The notes beneath the pieces are model-generated. The model was not told the DNA's origin, searched no databases, and saw only the letters and a list, made by a program, of their open reading frames with translations. A program made the translations under genes and the position numbers. A stretch of DNA of 64,000 bases from an uncultured Rhodopila sp. (GTDB taxonomy: Bacteria > Pseudomonadota > Alphaproteobacteria > Acetobacterales > Acetobacteraceae), in the NCBI GenBank assembly GCA_903851415.1, contig CAINOE010000084.1, positions 1-64,000 of the forward strand, written 5' to 3'. Within the stretch, counting starts at the first letter, position 1. Each line of letters opens with the position of its first letter. Shown here piece by piece: positions 3,623 to 13,254 of the stretch.

Positions 3623-3808
3623 TCAACCATCATCCGTCACCCGCAGGAACTTCGTCCGCGGCGCATCGCAGTTCGGGCAGCACCACGCCTCGGGCAGTTC
3701 CTCGAACAGCGTGCCCGCCGGGATCTGCCACACCGGATCGCCGGCCTCCGGATTGTACTCCTGCCAGCAGACCCCGCATTCGAACCGGGATGCCGCGGTG
3801 GCGCTCAT
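3623..3808 (-). CDS. hupI: HupI, rubredoxin of the hydrogenase operon
   Basis: This 61-aa rubredoxin has the two iron-binding pairs CGVC (residues 11-14) and CPNC (44-47), and the family segment AGDPVWQIPAGTLFEELPEAWCCP. Rubredoxins of this type protect or reduce the HupS iron-sulfur clusters during maturation when oxygen is present. The start at 3808 overlaps the hupH stop in an ATGA junction. A longer frame upstream is a hupH shadow. The nested palindromes follow directly downstream. Confidence 0.95.
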   Translation of the reverse strand: MSATAASRFECGVCWQEYNPEAGDPVWQIPAGTLFEELPEAWCCPNCDAPRTKFLRVTDDG

Positions 3809-4662
3809 CGGAAATATGCCTCCTCGATCTCCCGCAGCCTGACCGCGGAATCGCGAAAATCCTCCTCCGCCGCGCACGCGACGATCGGAACGTCGCAGAT
3901 TTCCACGGTGTCGAGCAGGATGGTATCGGACGAATTGAAATACTGCACCGACCAGACGCCATGCACCGCCGTCGCCTGGATGCGGCAACTGCCATAGCCG
4001 TGCGAGGCGATCCGCACCGGGCCGGTGGCCAGCGAGTCCTGGAGGAACCCGATGTCCTCCGGCGTCATCGGCAGCAGCGATAAGGAAATCGTGTGCGCCT
4101 CGTCCCCCGGCTGCCGCCGCCGGACGCGGTCGCGGATTTCCGCCAGCACCGGCATGACGTTCATCGCGCCCTCGGGCGGTTCACCAAAGGCGAGATCCGC
4201 CAGCGTCATCGCCGCGGCGCGGCGGATCGCCTGCGGGATGGCGGAGACCTCGGCATAGTCGGCGATCAGCCTGCCGGTGGCATCGGTGAAGCGGACGCGC
4301 CAAAGGCCGGTCATCACGCTCTCCTGCACCTGCGCCAGGACTCCGTCCGGCAGGGCTGCCAGGGCGTTGACCTCGCCCTCCCCCAGCACTTCGCCGACGA
4401 GCGCCACCTCCTCGGGTCCGAGTTCGCCGAGATCGAACAGGATGCCGGGCGCGCTGGCGGTCTGATGCTCCAGCGCCTCGGCCAGACGCGGCAGCAGGGC
4501 CGCGACCCCCGGGCAGCGCGCGACCATCGCCTCGGCGCCGGTGGTGGCGAGGAAGGACAGCGCCCCCGTGCCGGTGGTGCCGGATTTCCTGTCGCCGGCC
4601 GCGGGCTGCAGCACGACGGGACTTTCCGCCCACTCCGGCGATACCTGGATACCCGGTTTCAT
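3805..4662 (-). CDS. hupH: HupH, HyaF-family hydrogenase maturation protein
   Basis: This 285-aa protein matches the HupH/HyaF family in length and in its C-terminal half, including ALPDGVLAQVQESVMTGLWRV-type sequence near the middle and SHGYGSCRIQATAVHGVWSVQYFNS near residues 225-249. HupH is needed for HupS maturation in rhizobia. The start at 4662 overlaps the hupG stop and the stop overlaps the hupI start, so it sits in a tightly coupled block. Confidence 0.9.
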   Translation of the reverse strand: MKPGIQVSPEWAESPVVLQPAAGDRKSGTTGTGALSFLATTGAEAMVARCPGVAALLPRLAEALEHQTASAPGILFDLGELGPEEVALVGEVLGEGEVNALAALPDGVLAQVQESVMTGLWRVRFTDATGRLIADYAEVSAIPQAIRRAAAMTLADLAFGEPPEGAMNVMPVLAEIRDRVRRRQPGDEAHTISLSLLPMTPEDIGFLQDSLATGPVRIASHGYGSCRIQATAVHGVWSVQYFNSSDTILLDTVEICDVPIVACAAEEDFRDSAVRLREIEEAYFR

Positions 4663-5105
4663 GCGCCGCCCCTGCCGTTGGTGTGCCGGAACTCGACCTG
4701 CGGACGCACCGGAGCCGCCATTTCCGGCGCGGCGGGGGCGAGCAGGGTCTGCAACGTCGCCACGTAATCGGACCAGTCTCGGATGCGCGGCAGGACGCCC
4801 AACGGCGCCGGCCCGCGGGTGACCACGAGGCTGGGTAAGATCTGAACATGGAAGCGCGTTTTCAGCGTGTCTTCGGCCGAGCGGGCAACGACCGCGGCAC
4901 GCAGGCGGCCCGGGAATGCGGCAAGCAGTTCCGGCAGCACGACGGCGACGTCGTGGCTTTCGCTGCGTTGCGCCGGGTCGCCGGTGAAGAACAGCAGCGT
5001 GTTCGGCGGTTCGCCCGCGGCGGGCGCCAGGAAGGCGTCGATGCTGTGCTCGTCCACCGTCGGGAGGCCGTGCCGGCTGGACAGGGAGGCGATCAGCGAT
5101 GACAT
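4659..5105 (-). CDS. hupG: HupG, thioredoxin-fold chaperone for the hydrogenase small subunit
   Basis: This 148-aa HyaE/HupG family protein has a thioredoxin-like fold without the CxxC active site (TLLFFTGDPAQRSESHDVAVVLPELL ... ILPSLVVTRG). These proteins bind the Tat signal of HupS and delay export until it is mature. I chose MSSLIASL at 5105. The frame continues upstream to 5417, but that part is a shadow of hupF. The stop overlaps the hupH start. Confidence 0.87.
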   Translation of the reverse strand: MSSLIASLSSRHGLPTVDEHSIDAFLAPAAGEPPNTLLFFTGDPAQRSESHDVAVVLPELLAAFPGRLRAAVVARSAEDTLKTRFHVQILPSLVVTRGPAPLGVLPRIRDWSDYVATLQTLLAPAAPEMAAPVRPQVEFRHTNGRGGA

Positions 5106-5125
5106 GCCGGGTGTTCCTCTGGTGG

Positions 5126-5419
5126 TCAGTCGCGCAAATGCGCGGGCAGTTCGGGTTCGCGGTCGATCAGGTCCTGGAACAGGTGCTCGAAAGCGCGGCC
5201 TTCGAGCGCGGCGGCGAGTCCTTCCAGCGCCCGGTCGATCGAGCCGGCTTCTTCTTCGTCCAGTACCCGGACGGCGGTGTCGATATGCACCAGCACCTTC
5301 GTGCCGGCCGGTTGCGGGCCGATGAGCATCAGCGAGACCTGGCGCAGCTCCTCGCCGCGTCCGCACAAGGCGCAGGCGTCGCTGCCGGTCAGCACGGTCA
5401 TGGGGAGGCCGAGGCACAT
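5126..5419 (-). CDS. hupF: HupF, HypC-family hydrogenase chaperone
   Basis: This 97-aa protein starts MCLGLPMTV. The Cys2 typical of HypC/HupF is the residue that binds the Fe(CN)2CO precursor or the large subunit. The protein is longer than HypC at its C-terminus, as is usual for HupF, which stabilises HupL when oxygen is present. It lies 20 bp before hupG. It is separated from hupD by about 190 bp that contain a palindromic repeat. Confidence 0.93.
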   Translation of the reverse strand: MCLGLPMTVLTGSDACALCGRGEELRQVSLMLIGPQPAGTKVLVHIDTAVRVLDEEEAGSIDRALEGLAAALEGRAFEHLFQDLIDREPELPAHLRD

Positions 5420-5608: not shown

Positions 5609-6172
5609 TCATGCGGAAGCCCGTTCGTACGCAGCGTGACCGATATCGTTACTCAGCAGCCCTTCGTCCTCCCGCAGCGGCACCGCCCGCATCCGCACCG
5701 CCAGACCCCATTCCGCTAGCACCGCCACCGCCGCCTCCACCGCGGCGCCGATCGCATCACGCACTGGCGGGGTCAGCGGACCGCCCCAGTCCTCCAGATC
5801 GACGGGCTGGCAGCCGATCAACGCCAGCCGTTTCGGATAGGCGCCGAGCAGGTCGGCGGCGGACAGCACTTCCTGGAAACCCGTCTGGTGCAGGCTCATT
5901 TTCTTCGCGCCGGTGAACTTCGGCACCTCCTTGTCCCGCACGATCTTCAGCGTGCCGGGCTCCAGCCCGTAGTCGATCGCGTCGAACACCAGCAGGTCAT
6001 CGGCGTCCTGCAGATAGTTCACCAAATACAGGCCCTGGGTGCCCCCGTCCAGCAGCACGGCATCATCCGGCAGTTCATACCGGCGGTGGAACGCCTCCAC
6101 CGCCCGCACGCCGAACCCTTCATCCGCCCACAGGATGTTGCCAATGCCGAGGACCAGCACCGTCACCGTCAA
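5609..6172 (-). CDS. hupD: HupD, hydrogenase maturation endopeptidase
   Basis: This 187-aa member of the HyaD/HybD peptidase family cuts the C-terminal tail of HupL after nickel insertion. I see the N-terminal LGIGNILWADEGFGVRAVEAF, in which Glu18 is the expected metal ligand. DAIDYGLEPGT and LIGCQPVDLEDWGGPLTP follow. The start at 6172 overlaps the hupC stop in ATGA. A 44-bp fossil of this gene is present downstream of hupC2. Confidence 0.96.
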   Translation of the reverse strand: MTVTVLVLGIGNILWADEGFGVRAVEAFHRRYELPDDAVLLDGGTQGLYLVNYLQDADDLLVFDAIDYGLEPGTLKIVRDKEVPKFTGAKKMSLHQTGFQEVLSAADLLGAYPKRLALIGCQPVDLEDWGGPLTPPVRDAIGAAVEAAVAVLAEWGLAVRMRAVPLREDEGLLSNDIGHAAYERASA

Positions 6173-6933
6173 TCCTCCCGGTCGTCGCGGAACTGCCGCT
6201 CACCGGAAATCATCGTCGAGATCATCGTCTGCCGGCTCATGATGTCCTCGCGGACCGCGGCATAGACGTGGAGGATGACGAAGGTGATGATCACCCACAT
6301 CCCCATATGGTGCCACGTGTGCACGTCCTGGCTGTTGGGAAACAGCCTGAACACCCAGCCGAACGCCTTCGCCTGCCAACTGTCGTTGCCCTCGCCCTGC
6401 GAATACAGCGCGAAGCCCGTGCAGATCATGCCGATGGTGATGGACGTCACCATCAGCACCATGAAGATATGCGCCAGCGGGTTGTGGCCGATGTATTTCT
6501 TCGGCTCCTTTTCCAGGAACAGGTACCAGCGCGCTTCCTGGCGCACTCCGCTCCACCATTTGCGGCTCCAGACCGGCAGGTAGAAAATCTGCCGTGCATG
6601 GATGTTGCCGACAAACGCCCAGTAGATCCGCATGGCAAACCCGATGGCCAGGATATAGCCCGCGGTGAAATGCGTCGTGCGGATATAGCCCATCAGGAAG
6701 TGGTCCGAAGCCTCCCCCGACAGCGTCGGCAACGGTTCGCCGATGAAATACCCGCTGACCGCCAGAACGATGATGCACAGCGCATTGACCCAGTGCCACA
6801 GCCGCACCGGCGCCTCATACACATAGATCGTCGGCCGGTTTATCGGCAGTTCCCGGTTCAGCGCGCCGCCGATATCGGCGACCCCGGCAAGCACCTGCTC
6901 CTGGAACTTGCTCGGACGCGTGGTAGTGGGCAA
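6169..6933 (-). CDS. hupC: HupC, membrane cytochrome b of the uptake hydrogenase
   Basis: HupC anchors HupSL in the membrane and passes electrons from hydrogen to quinone. This copy has 254 aa with four hydrophobic segments and haem-ligand histidines (WHWVNAL, TTHFTAGY, HTWHHMGMW, ILHVYAAV). I place the start at the TTG at 6933 (MPTTTRPSKFQEQVL), preceded by GGGGGA about 6 nt upstream. The longer upstream frame overlaps hupL and is not real. It is closely similar to HupC2 at 10.2 kb. Confidence 0.93.
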   Translation of the reverse strand: MPTTTRPSKFQEQVLAGVADIGGALNRELPINRPTIYVYEAPVRLWHWVNALCIIVLAVSGYFIGEPLPTLSGEASDHFLMGYIRTTHFTAGYILAIGFAMRIYWAFVGNIHARQIFYLPVWSRKWWSGVRQEARWYLFLEKEPKKYIGHNPLAHIFMVLMVTSITIGMICTGFALYSQGEGNDSWQAKAFGWVFRLFPNSQDVHTWHHMGMWVIITFVILHVYAAVREDIMSRQTMISTMISGERQFRDDRED

Positions 6934-6947
6934 GGCGAATCCCCCGC

Positions 6948-8747
6948 TTAACGGATGGTGACGGTCGCCATGTCCTGGCCATCCGGCGACATGACATGAG
7001 TGGAACAGGCCAGGCACGGATCGAACGAATGGATCGTACGCAAAATCTCCAGCGGCTTCTGCGGATCGGCCATCGGCGTATCCAGCAGCGCCGCCTCGAA
7101 TGCGCCGATGTTGCCGGCCGGATCGCGCGGCGAACCGTTCCAGGTTGTCGGCACGACGCACTGATAGTTGTCGATCCGGCCGTCCTTGATCTTCACCCAA
7201 TGCGCCAGCGACCCGCGCGGCGCCTCGGTGAAGCCAACGCCCTTGACGTCGCGCGGCCAACTGTCCGGACTCCACTTGTCGGTGTTCGCCGTGGACAGAT
7301 CGCCATTCTTGAGGCTGGTCATCAGCTTGTCCTGGAAGTAACGAAGCTGCCCTGCCGCCCACTGGCATTCCAGCCCGCGCGCCGCGGTGCGGCCGAGGGT
7401 CGAGAACAGCGCCGTCACCGGCAGCCCGAGATCCGTCAGCAGCTTGTCGGCCGGTTCCTTGAACTCCGGCTTGCCCTGCGCGTAACCGACGACCCAGCGG
7501 GCGAGGGGGCCGACCTCGACGGCGTTGCCCTTCCAGCGGGGCGCTTTGACGAAGGAATATTTCGCGGCTTCGTCCACCGCCTCGATCGACGTCCTCGTGC
7601 CCTTGGCGTTCGGACCGAGAACGTAATTCGGCTCGGTGACGCCATCATAGGGATGCAGCCCCTTCGACTCGTCGCTATATGTGTACCAGCTATGGCTGAC
7701 GAATTCCTGAACTTGCGACGGGTCGCCCAGATCGATCGGGTGGACTTCGTTCAGGTTGCCGTTCAGGATCACGCCGCGCGGCAGCTTGAGGTTGGCTGCG
7801 GAATAGTCGTTGGCGTGCTCCGGAATGTCGCCATACGACATCACCGACTTGCCCGACAGCCCGCCGCCGTAGGTCCAGTCCTTGTAGAACGACGCAATCG
7901 CCGCCAGATCCGGCAGGTAGACCTGGTTGGCGAACGTCACCATCCGGTCGATGACCTCGGACACCAGGTTCAGCCGCTCCATGTTGATCGCGCCGACGGC
8001 GCCGGTGCCGTCGAGGTTGATCGCGCAGGGAACGCCGCCGACAAGCCAATTCGGATGCGGATTCTTGCCGCCGTAGATGGTGTGGATCCGGACCATGTCC
8101 TTCTGGAAGTCGAGCGCCTCCAGGTAGTGCGCCACCGCCATCAGATTGGCTTCCGGCGGCAGCTTGTACGCCGGATGGCCCCAGTATCCGTTCTTGAACG
8201 GACCCAACTGTCCGCTGTCGACGAACTTTTTCAGCCGCGTCTGCAGATCCTTGAAGTAGCCGGGCGACGACAGCGGCCAGGGCGAAATCGACTGCGCCAG
8301 CGCGCTGGTCGCCTTCGGGTCCGCCGACAGGGCCGAAACGACATCGACCCAGTCCAGCGCGTGCAGATGGTAGAAATGCACGATATGGTCGTGCACCTGC
8401 AGCGTCAACTGCATGATGTTACGGATCGTGTTGGCGTTTTCCGGGATATTGATGGAAAGCGCGTTCTCCACCGCGCGCACCGAGGTCAGCGCATGGGTGC
8501 CGGTGCAGACGCCGCAAATTCGTTCTGTAAACGCCCAGGCGTCGCGCGGATCGCGGCCGCGCAAAATCACCTCGATGCCGCGCCACATCGTTCCGGTGGA
8601 CACGGCATTGCGGATGACGTTGTTGCTGTCCACGTTCACTTCGAGGCGCAGATGGCCCTCGATGCGGGTGACCGGATCGACGACGACCCGCTTGCCGGAG
8701 TTGTCGAGGTTGAAGCCGTTCGGGGTCTGGACGCCCATGTTATTCAT
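6948..8747 (-). CDS. hupL: HupL, large (nickel-iron) subunit of uptake hydrogenase
   Basis: This 599-aa catalytic subunit carries both nickel-binding pairs: RICGVC (residues 76-81) and DPCLAC (576-581). The DPCLACSTH motif ends at His584, so HupD should remove the last 15 residues ([15 protein letters not shown]). The start overlaps the end of hupS by 8 bp. It is the only complete large-subunit gene in the window, so any partner of HupS2 must be this protein or one encoded elsewhere. Confidence 0.98.
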
Positions 8748-9816
8748 CCCGTTTGGTGGAAAGCCGCTTCACGGCGGTGACACCGGCATGCACCGCCACG
8801 CCGGCCAGAACGACTCCGGCGATGGTGCCGCCGATCCTGTCGGCGTTGGCTTCGACGCCGAACTGATTGATGGTGGTGAGGCGGTCGTAGAACGATTCCT
8901 TGTCCCAGAACCCGTCCTCCGAACAGCCGATGCAGCCGTGACCGGATTGGATGGGGAACGACACGCCGTTATTCCAACGCACTGTCGAGCAGGCGTTGTA
9001 GGTCGTCGGTCCCTTGCAGCCCATCTTGTACAGGCAATAGCCCTTGCGCGCGCCCTCATCGTCCCAGGCTTCGACGAACTGCCCGGCGTCGAAATGCGGG
9101 CGGCGATAGCATTTGTCGTGGATGCGCTGCGAATAGAACATTTTCGGCCGCCCCTGGCGGTCGAGTTCGGGCAGGCGCCCGAAGGTGACGATGTATGAAA
9201 TCACCCCGGTCATCACCTCCGCGATCGGAGGGCACCCCGGCACCTTTATGATCGGCTTGTCGAGGATAACCTTGTCGATCGGCACTGCATGCGTCGGGTT
9301 GGGCTTGGCGGCTTGCACGCAGCCCCAGGACGCACACGCGCCCCAGGCAACAACCGCGGACGCGTCGGCGGCCATATATTTCAGCTTTTCAACGAACGGC
9401 TTGCCGCCATCGATGCAGTACATGCCGTCTTCATTCAGCGGCGGATTGCCTTCCACCGCGAGAATGTATTGGCCCTTGTACTTTTCCTTGGTTTCTTCCA
9501 GGATCGCTTCGGCCTGGTGGCCGGCGGCGGCCATGATCGTATCGTCATAATCCAGCGAGATCATCGACAGGATGACATCCTTGACCAGCGGATGCGCCGA
9601 CCGGATGAAGCTTTCGGAACAACAGGTGCATTCCAGGCCATGCATCCAGATCACCGGGACGCGGGGCTTGGTTTCGAGCGCGTGGGCCATTTGAGTGGCG
9701 GCGGCGGGGCTGAGGCCGAGGCTGGCGGCGGTCAGGCTGCAGAACTTCACGAAGCTGCGGCGGGAGATCCCCTGCCGACGGATAACGTCGTAGAAGGTTT
9801 CGGTGGCTAAACCCAA
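8740..9816 (-). CDS. hupS: HupS, small (iron-sulfur) subunit of uptake hydrogenase
   Basis: This 358-aa Tat-exported small subunit has the twin-arginine motif SRRSFVK at residues 18-24. The cluster-binding motifs [35 protein letters not shown] and GHGCIGCSE follow, with a C-terminal membrane anchor. I chose the TTG at 9816 ([10 protein letters not shown]) because AGGGGGAA stands just upstream. This also gives exactly the same length and register as hupS2 ([10 protein letters not shown]). An ATG-like start at 9879 would lie on top of the promoter and is less likely. Confidence 0.95.
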
Positions 9817-9872
9817 TGCTTCCCCCTGAACGATGCACGCTCGTTCGCTTGTCGTGTTGTCTCTGAGAGGAA

Positions 9873-9890
9873 ATAGCAAGGTTCATGCCG
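9873..9890 (-). promoter_or_regulatory. Sigma-54-type promoter of hupSLC...
   Basis: Read on the minus strand the sequence is CGGCATGAACCTTGCTAT. This has the -24 GG and -12 GC separated by exactly 10 bases, close to the consensus TGGCACG-N4-TTGC. Transcription would start near 9864, about 48 nt before the hupS start. A block just upstream (GGCGCCAGTGCAAAA on the plus strand) is shared with the hupS2 promoter. Confidence 0.6.
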
Positions 9891-10119
9891 GGGCGCCAGT
9901 GCAAAAGCGCTTCGAAAAGACCCGCATTTCAAGGCTATAGCCGGGCGGCGATGGGCCTTTCCGGAGCACGGGATTGTCGGAAACACCACATCAGTGTAAG
10001 CAATCCGACGATAAGTGTTGCACCTTCGGGTGCCGGTGCAAGGCGGGCCGAACGACCCGGAACCGGCACCGCCCTCTCCCGGTCATGGTCAGCCTCCCGG
10101 AGGAGAGGGGGGCAGACCA

Positions 10120-10163
10120 GATGGAACGCCTCCACCACCCGCACGCCCGAACCCCTCATCCGC
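10120..10163 (-). pseudogene. Fossil of a second hupD
   Basis: On the minus strand 44 bp align with hupD codons for ADEGFGVRAVEAFH. There is one extra G that shifts the frame (ADEGFG, then VRVVEAFH in the next frame). The first 14 codons and everything after about codon 30 are gone. It begins 13 bp after the hupC2 stop, the place hupD has in the intact operon. The rest of 9891-10119 has no gene; it holds the conserved promoter-upstream block and otherwise nothing I recognise. Confidence 0.7.
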
Positions 10164-10176
10164 GCATTGAGCAGTG

Positions 10177-10944
10177 CTAAACCTCCCGGTCGTCGCGGAA
10201 CTGGCGCTCGCCGGAGAACATGGTGGAGATCATGGTCTGCCGGCTCATGATGTCCTCGCGCAGCCCGGCGTAGACATGGATGATAATGAACGTGACGATG
10301 ACCCACATGCCCAGGCGGTGTAAGGTATGCACGTCCTGACTGTTGGGAAACAACAGAAACACCCAACCGAAAACCTTGGCCTGCCAACTGTCCGCGCCTT
10401 CCCCCTGAGAGTAGAGCGCAAAGCCGGTCACGATCATCGCCACGGAGAAGAACGTGAACATCGTTACCATCGAGATTTGAGCCAGCGGGTTATGGCCGAT
10501 GTATTTCTTCGGCTCCTCTTCCAGGAACGCATACCAGCGCGCTTCGTGGATCACGCCGCGCCACCATTTCTTGCTCCACAACGGCAGATAGAAGATCCGG
10601 CGCGCATGGTGGTTGCCGACGAAGCCCCAATAGAGACGCAGCAGAAAGCCAATGGCCATCACGTACGCCGCGGTGAAATGGGTGAAGCGGATATAGCCCA
10701 TCAGGAAATGATCGGAGGCTTCGCCCGGCACGTTGAACAAAGGCCTGCCAATCAGGAAGCCCGTTGCGACCAGAACCATGACCGCCAGCGCATTCACCCA
10801 GTGCCACACGCGGACTGGCGCCTCATAGACGTAAACCGTCGAGCGGGTGATCACCATTTCGCCGTTCAGGTCGCCGCCCAGATCGGCGACGCCCGGGATG
10901 ATCTGTTCCTGGAATCGGAATGGATAAGAGGTTGAATCAGGCAC
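10177..10944 (-). CDS. HupC2, second cytochrome b subunit
   Basis: This 255-aa protein is a close paralogue of HupC with the same four membrane segments and haem histidines (WHWVNAL, FTHFTAAY, HTLHRLGMW, IIIHVYAG). I chose the GTG at 10944 (MPDSTSYPFRFQEQ) because GGAGGA lies 6 nt upstream. The frame stays open further upstream only because the hupL scar happens to be in the same frame. Its histidines and length are preserved, so it may still be functional, perhaps with HupS2 or as a second anchor for HupSL. Confidence 0.9.
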   Translation of the reverse strand: MPDSTSYPFRFQEQIIPGVADLGGDLNGEMVITRSTVYVYEAPVRVWHWVNALAVMVLVATGFLIGRPLFNVPGEASDHFLMGYIRFTHFTAAYVMAIGFLLRLYWGFVGNHHARRIFYLPLWSKKWWRGVIHEARWYAFLEEEPKKYIGHNPLAQISMVTMFTFFSVAMIVTGFALYSQGEGADSWQAKVFGWVFLLFPNSQDVHTLHRLGMWVIVTFIIIHVYAGLREDIMSRQTMISTMFSGERQFRDDREV

Positions 10945-10959
10945 GGCGAGTCCTCCCTG

Positions 10960-11056
10960 GCAATTCATAACGCCGGCCGAGTCCCGGCGAACCGGCGACA
11001 CGACTTCCTTGAAGCAAAGGCACGGGCCGAAAGAGCGGATCGTCCGCGTTATTCAT
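10960..11056 (-). pseudogene. Scar of a deleted second hupL
   Basis: Directly after hupS2 the sequence keeps the first three hupL codons (ATG AAT AAC) overlapping the hupS2 stop. It then jumps to sequence aligning with the last 28 codons of hupL. Translated, it gives RTIRSFGPCLCFKEVVSP, against [19 protein letters not shown] in HupL. About 570 codons are missing, and the nickel motif DPCLAC is changed to GPCLCF. The scar therefore no longer encodes a large subunit. Confidence 0.85.
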
Positions 11057-12125
11057 CCCGCTTGGTGGACATCCGCTTCACGACGGTGACTCCGGCATGC
11101 ACCGCCACGCCCGCAAGGACGACACCGGCGATGGTACCGCCTATTTGGTCGGCGTTGGCCTCGATGCCGAACTGGTTGATCGTGGTCAGGCGGTCGTAGA
11201 ACGTTCCCTTGTCCCAGAATCCGTCCTCCGAACAGCCGATGCAGCCGTGGCCGGACTGGATCGGGAACGACACGCCGTTGTTCCACCGCACCGTGGAGCA
11301 GGCGTTGTAGGTCGTCGGCCCCTTGCAGCCCATTTTGTACAGGCAATGACCCTTGCGCGCGCCCTCATCGTCCCAGGCTTCGACGAACTGTCCGGCGTCG
11401 AAATGCGGGCGTCGGTAGCATTTGTCGTGGATGCGCTGGGAATAGAACATTTTCGGCCGACCCTGGCGGTCGAGTTCGGGCAGCCGGCCAAATGTGGTTA
11501 TGTAGGTGATAACCCCTGTCATCACCTCGGCAATTGGAGGGCACCCCGGCACCTTGATGATCGGCTTGTCGAGAATGACCTTGTCGATCGGCACGGCCTG
11601 CGTCGGGTTCGGCTTGGCGGCCTGCACGCAGCCCCAGGATGCGCAGGCGCCCCAGGCGACAACCGCCGAGGCGTCGGCCGCCATCCATTTCAGTTTTTCG
11701 ACGAACGGCCTGCCGCCGTCGATGCAGTACATGCCATCCTCATTCAGCGGCGCATTGCCCTCGACGGCCAGAATGTATTGGCCCTTGTACTTTTCCTTGG
11801 TTTCTTCCAGGATCGCTTCGGCCTGATGGCCGGCGGCGGCCATGATGGTGTCGTCGTAGTCCAGCGATACCATCGACAGGATGACGTCCTTGACCAGCGG
11901 ATGCGCGGATCGGATGAAGCTTTCGGAACAACAGGTGCATTCCAGCCCGTGCATCCAGATCACCGGCGTCCGGGGCCTGGTTTCCAGCGCATGTGCCATT
12001 TCGCTGGCGGCGGCGGAACCAAGGCCGAGGCTCGCGGCGGTCAGGCTGCAGAACTTCACGAAGCTGCGGCGGGATATACCCTGCCGACGGATAACGTCAT
12101 AGAATGTTTCGGTACCCACAGCCAT
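11049..12125 (-). CDS. HupS2, second hydrogenase small subunit without its own HupL
   Basis: This 358-aa protein is nearly identical to HupS. The Tat motif SRRSFVK, all cluster cysteines ([43 protein letters not shown]) and the C-terminal anchor are kept. The substitutions I see are conservative (for example NPP to NAP, YMAAD to WMAAD), which suggests it is still under selection. The start ATG at 12125 follows GGGGGGAAA. It is transcribed towards hupC2 from its own sigma-54-type promoter, and read-through could reach the main operon. Confidence 0.95.
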
Positions 12126-12180
12126 TTTCCCCCCGAGGGAATGCGCCTTTGTTCGCATTTAATTTTTTAGCTAGGAGCAA

Positions 12181-12199
12181 TTTAGCAAGAATAGTCCCG
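12181..12199 (-). promoter_or_regulatory. Sigma-54-type promoter of hupS2
   Basis: The minus strand reads CGGGACTATTCTTGCTAAA, with GG and GC separated by 10 bases and a TTGCTA -12 element. Its distance to the hupS2 start matches the hupS promoter (about 48 nt from the predicted start site). The shared block GGCGCCAGTGCAAAA stands just upstream (12200-12214 on the plus strand). Confidence 0.55.
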
Positions 12200-12366
12200 C
12201 GGCGCCAGTGCAAAATGGGTTCGAAAAAATTATTCTCCGGACGTTTCAGGCGGCCGGCTGTCCGGCAAGCCGTACATGTGGGAAATACAAACTCGGTGTG
12301 GGATGCGATGATGCATGTTAAATGCTTTTGGTGTGCTTTCCGAACATCGCAGGACACGCCCGCCGC

Positions 12367-13254
12367 ATGAATCTCAAGCAACTCGAATACTTTGTGCAGG
12401 TTGCCGAGATCGGCAGCTTCAGTAAAGCCGCCAGTGTTATCGATATCGCGCAGCCGGCGCTCAGCCGGCATGTGCGCAGCCTGGAAACCGAACTCAACAC
12501 CTACCTGTTCGTCCGCAATGGACGCGGCGTCGCGCTGACCGAAGCGGGCAAGCGCCTGTTCGACCACAGCGTGGCGATCCTGCGGCTGATCGAGCAGGCC
12601 CGCGAGGACTTGGGCGCATCCCGGGACGAACCCTCCGGGCAGGTCACCATCGCCCTGCCGCCAAGCGCCGGCCGGCAGCTGACCGTCGCCCTGGTTGAAG
12701 GCTTCAAGACCCGCTTCCCCGCCGCGCGGCTCGCCATCGTCGAGGGCCTGTCCACCCACATCGTCGAATGGGTCACCACTGGCCGGGTCGATGTCGGTCT
12801 GATCTACAACCCGGAGGCGCAGCCGGGCCTGGAGATCACGCCGTTGCTGCAGGAACCCCTCGGCCTTGTCGGCCCGGCCGGCGAGGGGGCCTCCGGCGCG
12901 CCGCTGCCGATGCGGGAGATATCAGGCTACAAGCTGATCGTGCCGGAGCGGTTCCATGCGATCCGCCGCCTGCTGGAAACCCGCGCGGCGCTCGCCGGCA
13001 TCAGGCTCGACATCGCCTGGGAGGTGTCGAGCGTGCCATCAATCATTGACCTGGTGTGTGCGGGCTACGGCCACGCGGTGCTCAGCGCCAGCGGCGTGGC
13101 CGCCTCGGCCCGCGCCGCGGAGCTTGCGTTCCGCCCGATCGTGGACCCGGCGCTGGTGACCGTGCTGTGCGTGGCGGTCTCCGCGACCAAGCGGCCGACG
13201 CCTCTGGCGCAACAGGTCATACGGCTGGTGACGGAGTTGGTGTCGCAGCTTTGA
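12367..13254 (+). CDS. LysR-family transcription regulator (Nac/Cbl-like), divergent from hupS2
   Basis: This 295-aa LysR regulator has an N-terminal winged helix-turn-helix (MNLKQLEYFVQVAEIGSFSKAASVIDIAQPALSRHVRSLE) and a C-terminal substrate-binding domain. The start is placed at MNLKQLEYF (12367); an upstream ATG at 12322 would add 15 residues with no family match. It is transcribed away from hupS2, with 241 bp between the two starts. LysR proteins often act on divergent neighbours, so it may influence hupS2, but the sigma-54-type promoter would need a different kind of activator. Confidence 0.9.
   Translation: MNLKQLEYFVQVAEIGSFSKAASVIDIAQPALSRHVRSLETELNTYLFVRNGRGVALTEAGKRLFDHSVAILRLIEQAREDLGASRDEPSGQVTIALPPSAGRQLTVALVEGFKTRFPAARLAIVEGLSTHIVEWVTTGRVDVGLIYNPEAQPGLEITPLLQEPLGLVGPAGEGASGAPLPMREISGYKLIVPERFHAIRRLLETRAALAGIRLDIAWEVSSVPSIIDLVCAGYGHAVLSASGVAASARAAELAFRPIVDPALVTVLCVAVSATKRPTPLAQQVIRLVTELVSQL

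Follow-up and report, generated by a model that had tools for sequence, protein, structure and literature searches.

The genome of an uncultured Rhodopila species (Acetobacteraceae), here G000, harbors a second hup locus that has lost the gene for its catalytic subunit and has kept intact genes for a hydrogenase small subunit (hupS2) and a cytochrome b (hupC2). The locus lies in the window, the whole stretch of 64,000 nucleotides that was analyzed, upstream of hupS of a complete operon and on the same (minus) strand; G000 is the genome of the window and the own genome in all searches of relatives. Judged by their sequence, hupS2 and hupC2 are typical of the families to which the small subunits and cytochromes b of oxygen-tolerant uptake [NiFe]-hydrogenases belong, a type that we take to be group 1d, and the unusual feature is a maintained pair without its catalytic gene. 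A tentative reading, to which we give slightly less than even chances, is that HupS2 pairs with the HupL that the complete operon encodes and hands its electrons on to HupC2. The features of the two loci are as follows.

12126 to 12245, minus strand: upstream region of hupS2, related by alignment to the regions that precede the three hupS genes and the hupS2 stub of the congener G006
11049 to 12125, minus strand: hupS2, encoding a small subunit that has a Tat leader, the full set of cluster ligand motifs, and the C-terminal segment (TIGR00391, 556.9 bits, above the family cut-off of 179.5)
10945 to 11056, minus strand: hupL scar, with start codons at 11056-11048 and a degenerate tail alignable over 11047-10976 and more weakly to about 10945
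10177 to 10944, minus strand: hupC2, diverged hydrogenase cytochrome b subunit with a GTG start (TIGR02125, 231.5 bits, above the family cut-off of 121.5)
10122 to 10166, minus strand: hupD stub, the start of a maturation protease gene with one inserted base
8740 to 9816, minus strand: hupS of the complete operon, with a TTG start assigned from comparison with G006
6948 to 8747, minus strand: hupL of the complete operon, whose product is the putative partner of HupS2
6169 to 6933, minus strand: hupC of the complete operon
5609 to 6172, minus strand: hupD of the complete operon, maturation protease (TIGR00140, 213.4 bits)
4659 to 5417, minus strand: HyaE-like gene (PF07449/PF04809 matches for this and the next gene as a pair)
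3805 to 4662, minus strand: HupH-like gene

The complete operon runs hupS-hupL-hupC-hupD and is followed by the HyaE-like and HupH-like genes, which could serve both small subunits. The original prediction claimed the order hupS2, (hupL), hupC2, (hupD) for the second locus, as in the main operon, and this order is confirmed by the two intact genes, the hupL remnant, and the hupD stub alongside a complete hupSLCD; hupC2, the stub, and hupS of the complete operon then follow one another. The open frame of hupS2 spans 369 codons (11049-12158), with an ATG at 12125 that matches the predicted end of the gene. From hupS2 to the start of hupC2 there are 104 bases, and hupC2 has a GGAGGA ribosome-site-like motif of its own. 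A sigma-54 type pattern, sought as a promoter for hupS2, matches 19 times in the window against 28.8 expected, and a sigma-70 scan of 9700-12400 found none.

The stop codon of hupS2 overlaps ATG AAT AAC (11056-11048), which are the first three codons of hupL. The segment 11047-10976 matches the hupL tail, with an 85-base core whose score of 57 exceeds the highest of 2000 base shuffles (35) and whose best match in the window, the locus itself excluded, is the hupL tail. Over the aligned part, 11 of 48 first and second codon positions are changed and three bases are missing, the tail is out of frame with the remaining hupL start, and the nickel-binding DPCxxC motif is broken, as one codon inside it is missing and its first residue is changed. 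The start overlap, the tail alignment, and the broken motif bear out the proposal that hupL was reduced to its first three and last codons with the nickel motif degraded. In an uptake [NiFe]-hydrogenase operon, the locus includes a gene for the large subunit in which both nickel motifs are present; the second locus has three start codons and a broken tail only. For the hupD stub, the score is 70, and shuffled sequences reach 45 at most. Taken together, the start and tail remnants of hupL, the hupD stub, and the related upstream region indicate that the duplicated unit comprised at least hupSLCD with its upstream region.

An arrangement of this kind could also be produced by an assembly error that collapsed two full operons into one locus, which the original prediction had named as a refuting outcome, and the genome is a draft of 215 contigs with 6.15% contamination. 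Such a collapse would not produce a hupL tail this diverged, nor a hupD stub; hupS and hupS2 are separated by 122 substitutions in 361 codons, and hupC2 of G006 occupies the same position, flanked by hupS and a LysR gene. Given the diverged remnant and the syntenic congener, collapse is rejected as exceedingly improbable and the locus stands.

HupS2 and HupS are identical at 93% of residues, and hupS2 with its upstream region is 87% identical in DNA to hupS with its upstream region. All 14 cysteines of HupS are kept in HupS2 and all seven cluster motifs looked for are present, as predicted for the cluster cysteines; the roles of these Cys and His residues as ligands of the proximal (six Cys), medial, and distal clusters are assumed from the HoxK structure. 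Only one of 174 columns invariant in 30 other HupS rows is changed in HupS2, which carries a Tat leader (TIGR01409, 22.3 bits; cut-off 16.7) and has its best structure matches in HoxK chains (5mdj_S, E 5.8e-185). HupC2 and HupC share 73% of residues and 77% of DNA positions, and HupC2 matches the E. coli HyaC chain 4gd3_A with E 1.2e-65. Five histidines invariant in 29 of 29 other rows (48, 89, 151, 209, and 223) are all kept in HupC2, in line with the predicted retention of the haem histidines, the presumed haem ligands being among these five. The HupC2 proteins of both G000 and G006 change two other invariant positions, 70 and 227.

Selection was assessed by pairwise Nei-Gojobori comparison and by codon models. 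The pairwise omega is 0.085 for hupS and hupS2 (dS 0.46) and 0.21 for hupC and hupC2 (dS 0.85); between G000 and G006 it is 0.097 for hupC2 (dS 0.55), compared with 0.27 for hupC (dS 0.28). In the codon models, run with our own script on a fixed tree of 10 to 14 rows chosen by the analyst, the hupS2 branch has an omega of 0.048 versus 0.039 elsewhere, with omega = 1 worse by 12.2 lnL, and the branches also span time before the loss of hupL2. The hupC2 stem has an omega of 0.33, not distinguishable from 1, and the hupC2 tips have an omega of 0.046 (omega = 1 worse by 81 lnL), individually 0.036 for G000 (worse by 10.4 lnL) and 0.065 for G006 (worse by 3.6 lnL). A ratio near 1, which would have spoken against the original prediction, was found neither on the hupS2 branch nor at the hupC2 tips, where omega lies far below it. 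The faster early change of HupC2 and the constraint thereafter are as expected for a somewhat different role.

The hupL remnant, which is short and was counted in its alignable part alone, provides a reference within the locus: the 11 of 48 first and second codon positions changed in G000 compare with 29 of 722 for hupS and hupS2 (p = 1e-5), and 22 of 103 changed in G006 compare with 29 of 508 between the two hupC2 genes (p = 3e-6). Since the remnant is more changed at these positions than either pair, hupS2 and hupC2 appear to have kept their sequence while the remnant drifted. There are no stop codons or frameshifts in hupS2 or hupC2 of the window. An old conversion of hupS2 by hupS may lower the omega of the hupS2 branch, and dS between hupS and hupS2 is about half that between hupC and hupC2. 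Recent conversion is not supported: the derived states shared by hupS and hupS2 of G000 number five sites, against five and 12 for two incompatible patterns, and the longest identical run of hupS and hupS2 is 56 bases, below the 95% point of 59 for scattered differences. The differences found in hupS2 only are unevenly distributed along the gene, with 12, 15, 3, 7, 3, 6, 4, 4, and 12 per 120 bases.

A search of the genus (32 other genomes and the own, 33 in all) found any HupS match at E <= 0.001 in five genomes, the own included. A hup operon of this type is present in G000, G006, and G008, a more distant one in G030, and only a 45% relative in G010. The rows for trees and alignments were drawn from a 61-locus set and from same-genus loci; they comprise 29 loci, 28 of that set and L098, picked by the analyst for readable hupC and for spread. 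Three rows with a stop inside the extracted frame (L041_C, L047_C, and L051_C) were kept in the tree of the small subunit (S) and cytochrome b (C) sequences of the three congeners, and left out of the invariant-histidine count, the hupC residue list, the G373 trees, and the Cys-motif and sharing comparisons; L083, with a long branch, was left out of the G373 trees and of the latter two comparisons. In the protein trees, the S sequences of the three species group without S2 (96/88) and the C sequences group without C2 (100/98), which joins them at 94/89. These groupings place the duplication, as far as the trees can tell, before the split of the three congeneric species.

The second copy has since met a different fate in each species. 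G006 keeps hupC2 and only the start of hupS2, and its scar, in which the first hupS2 codons are joined to a hupL tail of about 50 codons, has end points that differ from those in G000. The expectation that relatives carry the same scar therefore did not hold, and the differing end points imply that each of the two lineages lost hupL2 in a step of its own or that an initial deletion grew later. In G008 the operon is complete, and the gap before it shows no trace of hupS2 or hupC2; the second copy was lost there or the region replaced. A short palindromic repeat that resembles a dispersed intergenic repeat occurs in this G008 gap before hupS (L097, about 5647-5718) and in the window at 1-71 and about 2430-2493. 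Between G006 (hupC at L096, 6572-7336) and G008 (hupC at L097, about 8883-9638), dS is 0.12 for hupC, lower than the 0.24 for hupS and 0.26 for hupL, which could reflect recombination. The predicted history, in which the operon was duplicated, hupL (and hupD) disappeared, and hupS2 and hupC2 remained, is thus well supported in G000, but the pair is not uniformly kept, as G006 lacks hupS2 and G008 lacks both genes.

Stepwise loss of this kind speaks against an essential role and, on the gene content of the congeners, looks like decay of a dispensable copy. If the locus were a dispensable duplicate in slow decay, hupL and hupD would have gone first, hupS2 next (G006), and then all (G008). The three congeners would then represent three stages, and the dS of hupC2 between G000 and G006 (0.55), larger than that of hupC (0.28), and the raised omega of the hupC2 stem agree with such a course. 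An omega far below 1 on the hupS2 branch and the hupC2 tips, the freedom of both genes from stops and frameshifts while the hupL remnant drifted, and a constrained pair in the genome G373 described below make slow decay unlikely as the explanation.

The gene content of G006 also suggests that HupC2 can be useful without HupS2; there, hupC2 alone would serve the ordinary HupSL dimer. Selection in G000 could likewise act on hupC2 alone, whose product would be a second choice of cytochrome b for the ordinary HupSL dimer and would anchor it in the membrane, with hupS2 a passenger that has not yet decayed or was once refreshed by conversion from hupS. Beyond the retention of hupC2 without hupS2 in G006, where its tip omega is 0.065 and omega = 1 is worse by 3.6 lnL, the raised stem omega (0.33) with subsequent constraint and a dS between hupS and hupS2 much below that between hupC and hupC2 fit this account. 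A passenger hupS2 is at odds with its branch omega of 0.048, at which omega = 1 is rejected, with site patterns and identical runs that give no sign of recent conversion, and with G373, which keeps hupS together with hupC. Selection on hupC2 alone is for these reasons considered rather unlikely.

Searches beyond the genus revealed one further hupL-less pair. In the order (395 genomes; HupC threshold E <= 1e-40), 27 genomes have a HupC match, and a hupC copy without adjoining hupL is found in G000, G006, and G373, while the other fetched loci have hupL followed by hupC. G373 belongs to the same family and another genus, with 7.4 Mb in nine contigs. Its pair (L146) consists of hupS, a 40-base gap, and hupC, both genes intact, with no hupL, hupD, or detectable remnant in the locus, and lies about 1.96 Mb from the complete hupSLCD of G373 on the same contig. 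This genome has a third hydrogenase locus, L148, which was left out of the Cys-motif and sharing comparisons. Two of the six other genomes of its genus have a hupC match, both with hupL. In trees, the small subunit of the G373 pair groups with that of G373's own operon (93/84, on a long branch) and its cytochrome b falls within a clade of G373, L038, and L039 (98/95), each apart from its counterpart in the window, which points to an apparently independent origin. Omega is 0.10 for hupS of the pair, looser than the background of 0.043 and with omega = 1 worse by 25 lnL, and 0.11 for hupC (worse by 14.7 lnL).

Such pairs are rare among the sampled relatives. The family search (397 genomes; HupS threshold E <= 1e-140) found HupS in 22 genomes at 25 places, at 23 of which hupL follows; the two exceptions are hupS2 of the window and the G373 copy. 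In the phylum search (398 genomes; E <= 1e-120), 23 genomes have HupS, and hupL follows at 22 of 23 places outside the own genome. The remaining locus, L179 (G1140:C16), encodes a small subunit at 51% identity, is preceded by a hupD-like gene, and shows no hupL match within 1.5 kb downstream. The class search at E <= 1e-120 found HupS in eight of 385 genomes, the own included. Direct succession of hupS by hupC was seen in none of the 61 loci of one set, in which hupS or hupL is unreadable at weak or short loci.

The two hupL-less small subunits have P136A in common, in a column invariant in 30 other rows. This change is ruled out as a mark of hupL-less copies, since six of 23 phylum-search loci carry A or S there, each with hupL adjoining hupS. 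In these ordinary hupS-hupL operons, A (L170, L171, L172, L173, and L175) or S (L159) replaces the otherwise invariant Pro after the EGN motif of HupS. The number of states shared uniquely by the window and G373 copies is high and not exceptional, being reached by two of 450 pairs for S and six of 428 pairs for C, the tested pair included. Convergent change in the two small subunits is accordingly rejected.

The pairing of HupS2 with HupL draws on the published behavior of small subunits, which reportedly depend on the large subunit for their export across the membrane (PMC7294309) and are lost if it fails to mature (PMC3283652). One HupL of this type is found in G000; a search for a second found only other large-subunit matches, partial and at 28-39% identity. 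Given the export requirement and this single HupL, HupS2 would most likely pair with it, a reading that is helped by the apparently independent hupL-less pair of G373. A 49-52% relative was found in G006, G008, and G010 and not in G000, where it may lie in an assembly gap. Two contigs of G000, C125 and C128 (L149 and L150), are 89-91% alike over about 9.7 kb of 12 kb, and each carries, equally far from the contig end, a 46%-identical small subunit, whose large-subunit counterpart is missing in G000 and present in G006 and G008. These contigs may represent a duplicated locus or, given the 6.15% contamination, a second strain in the assembly.

As the sequences support, an operon for an oxygen-tolerant-type uptake [NiFe]-hydrogenase, hupSLCD, was duplicated before the three congeneric species split, and the second copy lost hupL and hupD while hupS2 and hupC2 stayed intact and, in this species, constrained. 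In the most likely mechanism, HupS2 would acquire its iron-sulphur clusters, bind mature HupL from the complete operon, be exported with it by the Tat system, and dock on HupC2. One catalytic subunit would then have two front ends, HupS/HupC and HupS2/HupC2, which perhaps differ in when they act or in which step the diverged cytochrome b serves.

HupS2 and HupC2 could instead form an iron-sulphur/cytochrome b relay without any large subunit, an idea in keeping with the intact cluster ligands and haem histidines and with the retention of the hupL-less genes as a pair in G000 and G373. It is hard to reconcile with the reported need of small subunits for the large subunit in crossing the membrane (PMC7294309) and with their reported loss if it cannot mature (PMC3283652), with the nearly complete conservation in HupS2 of the columns invariant in HupL-bound relatives, and with the retention of hupC2 alone in G006; we consider it improbable. 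A broader possibility, about which we remain doubtful, is that hupS-hupC without hupL is a recurrent functional cassette derived from the hydrogenase, either as an exchangeable front end (one catalytic subunit with two electron exits) or as a relay free of a large subunit.

The large subunit, small subunit, and cytochrome b of uptake hydrogenases are commonly regarded as a set of three that does not vary. Here a duplicated operon has shed the catalytic gene and the protease while its electron-transfer pair is under selection, with an apparent second origin in the family, which suggests that duplication and divergence can affect the electron exit independently of the active site. If so, two small subunits would compete for one large subunit, and the two cytochromes b would have different partners or potentials; if not, the three congeners still provide a clear case of the stepwise loss of a duplicated hydrogenase operon.

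The closest known relatives are the oxygen-tolerant membrane-bound uptake [NiFe]-hydrogenases, HoxKG of Ralstonia eutropha and HyaABC of E. coli, in which hupS2 corresponds to HoxK and hupC2 to HyaC, and whose six-Cys proximal cluster motifs are kept; the second locus differs from them in that the gene for the large subunit is missing and the protease gene is reduced to a stub. The Isp-type hydrogenases are arranged as hynS-isp1-isp2-hynL in Thiocapsa, and have in common with the second locus that the small subunit gene adjoins a cytochrome b gene. There, the large subunit gene follows isp1-isp2; here it is gone, the remnant between hupS2 and hupC2 marks its old place, and hupC2 is followed by the hupD stub and hupS of the complete operon. 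A search of open-licence literature yielded no published hupL-less hupS-hupC locus. Bradyrhizobium diazoefficiens likewise carries two hup loci, one of them complete, but its second cluster, hupS2L2, retains the large subunit, with hupL2 and hupCD kept (PMC4791120). The nearest parallel is the G373 pair, which differs in its apparently independent origin, its 40-base gap without a detected hupL remnant, and its distance of about 1.96 Mb from the complete operon, and which shares with the second locus adjacent, intact, and constrained hupS and hupC genes without hupL or hupD in a genome that carries a complete hupSLCD.
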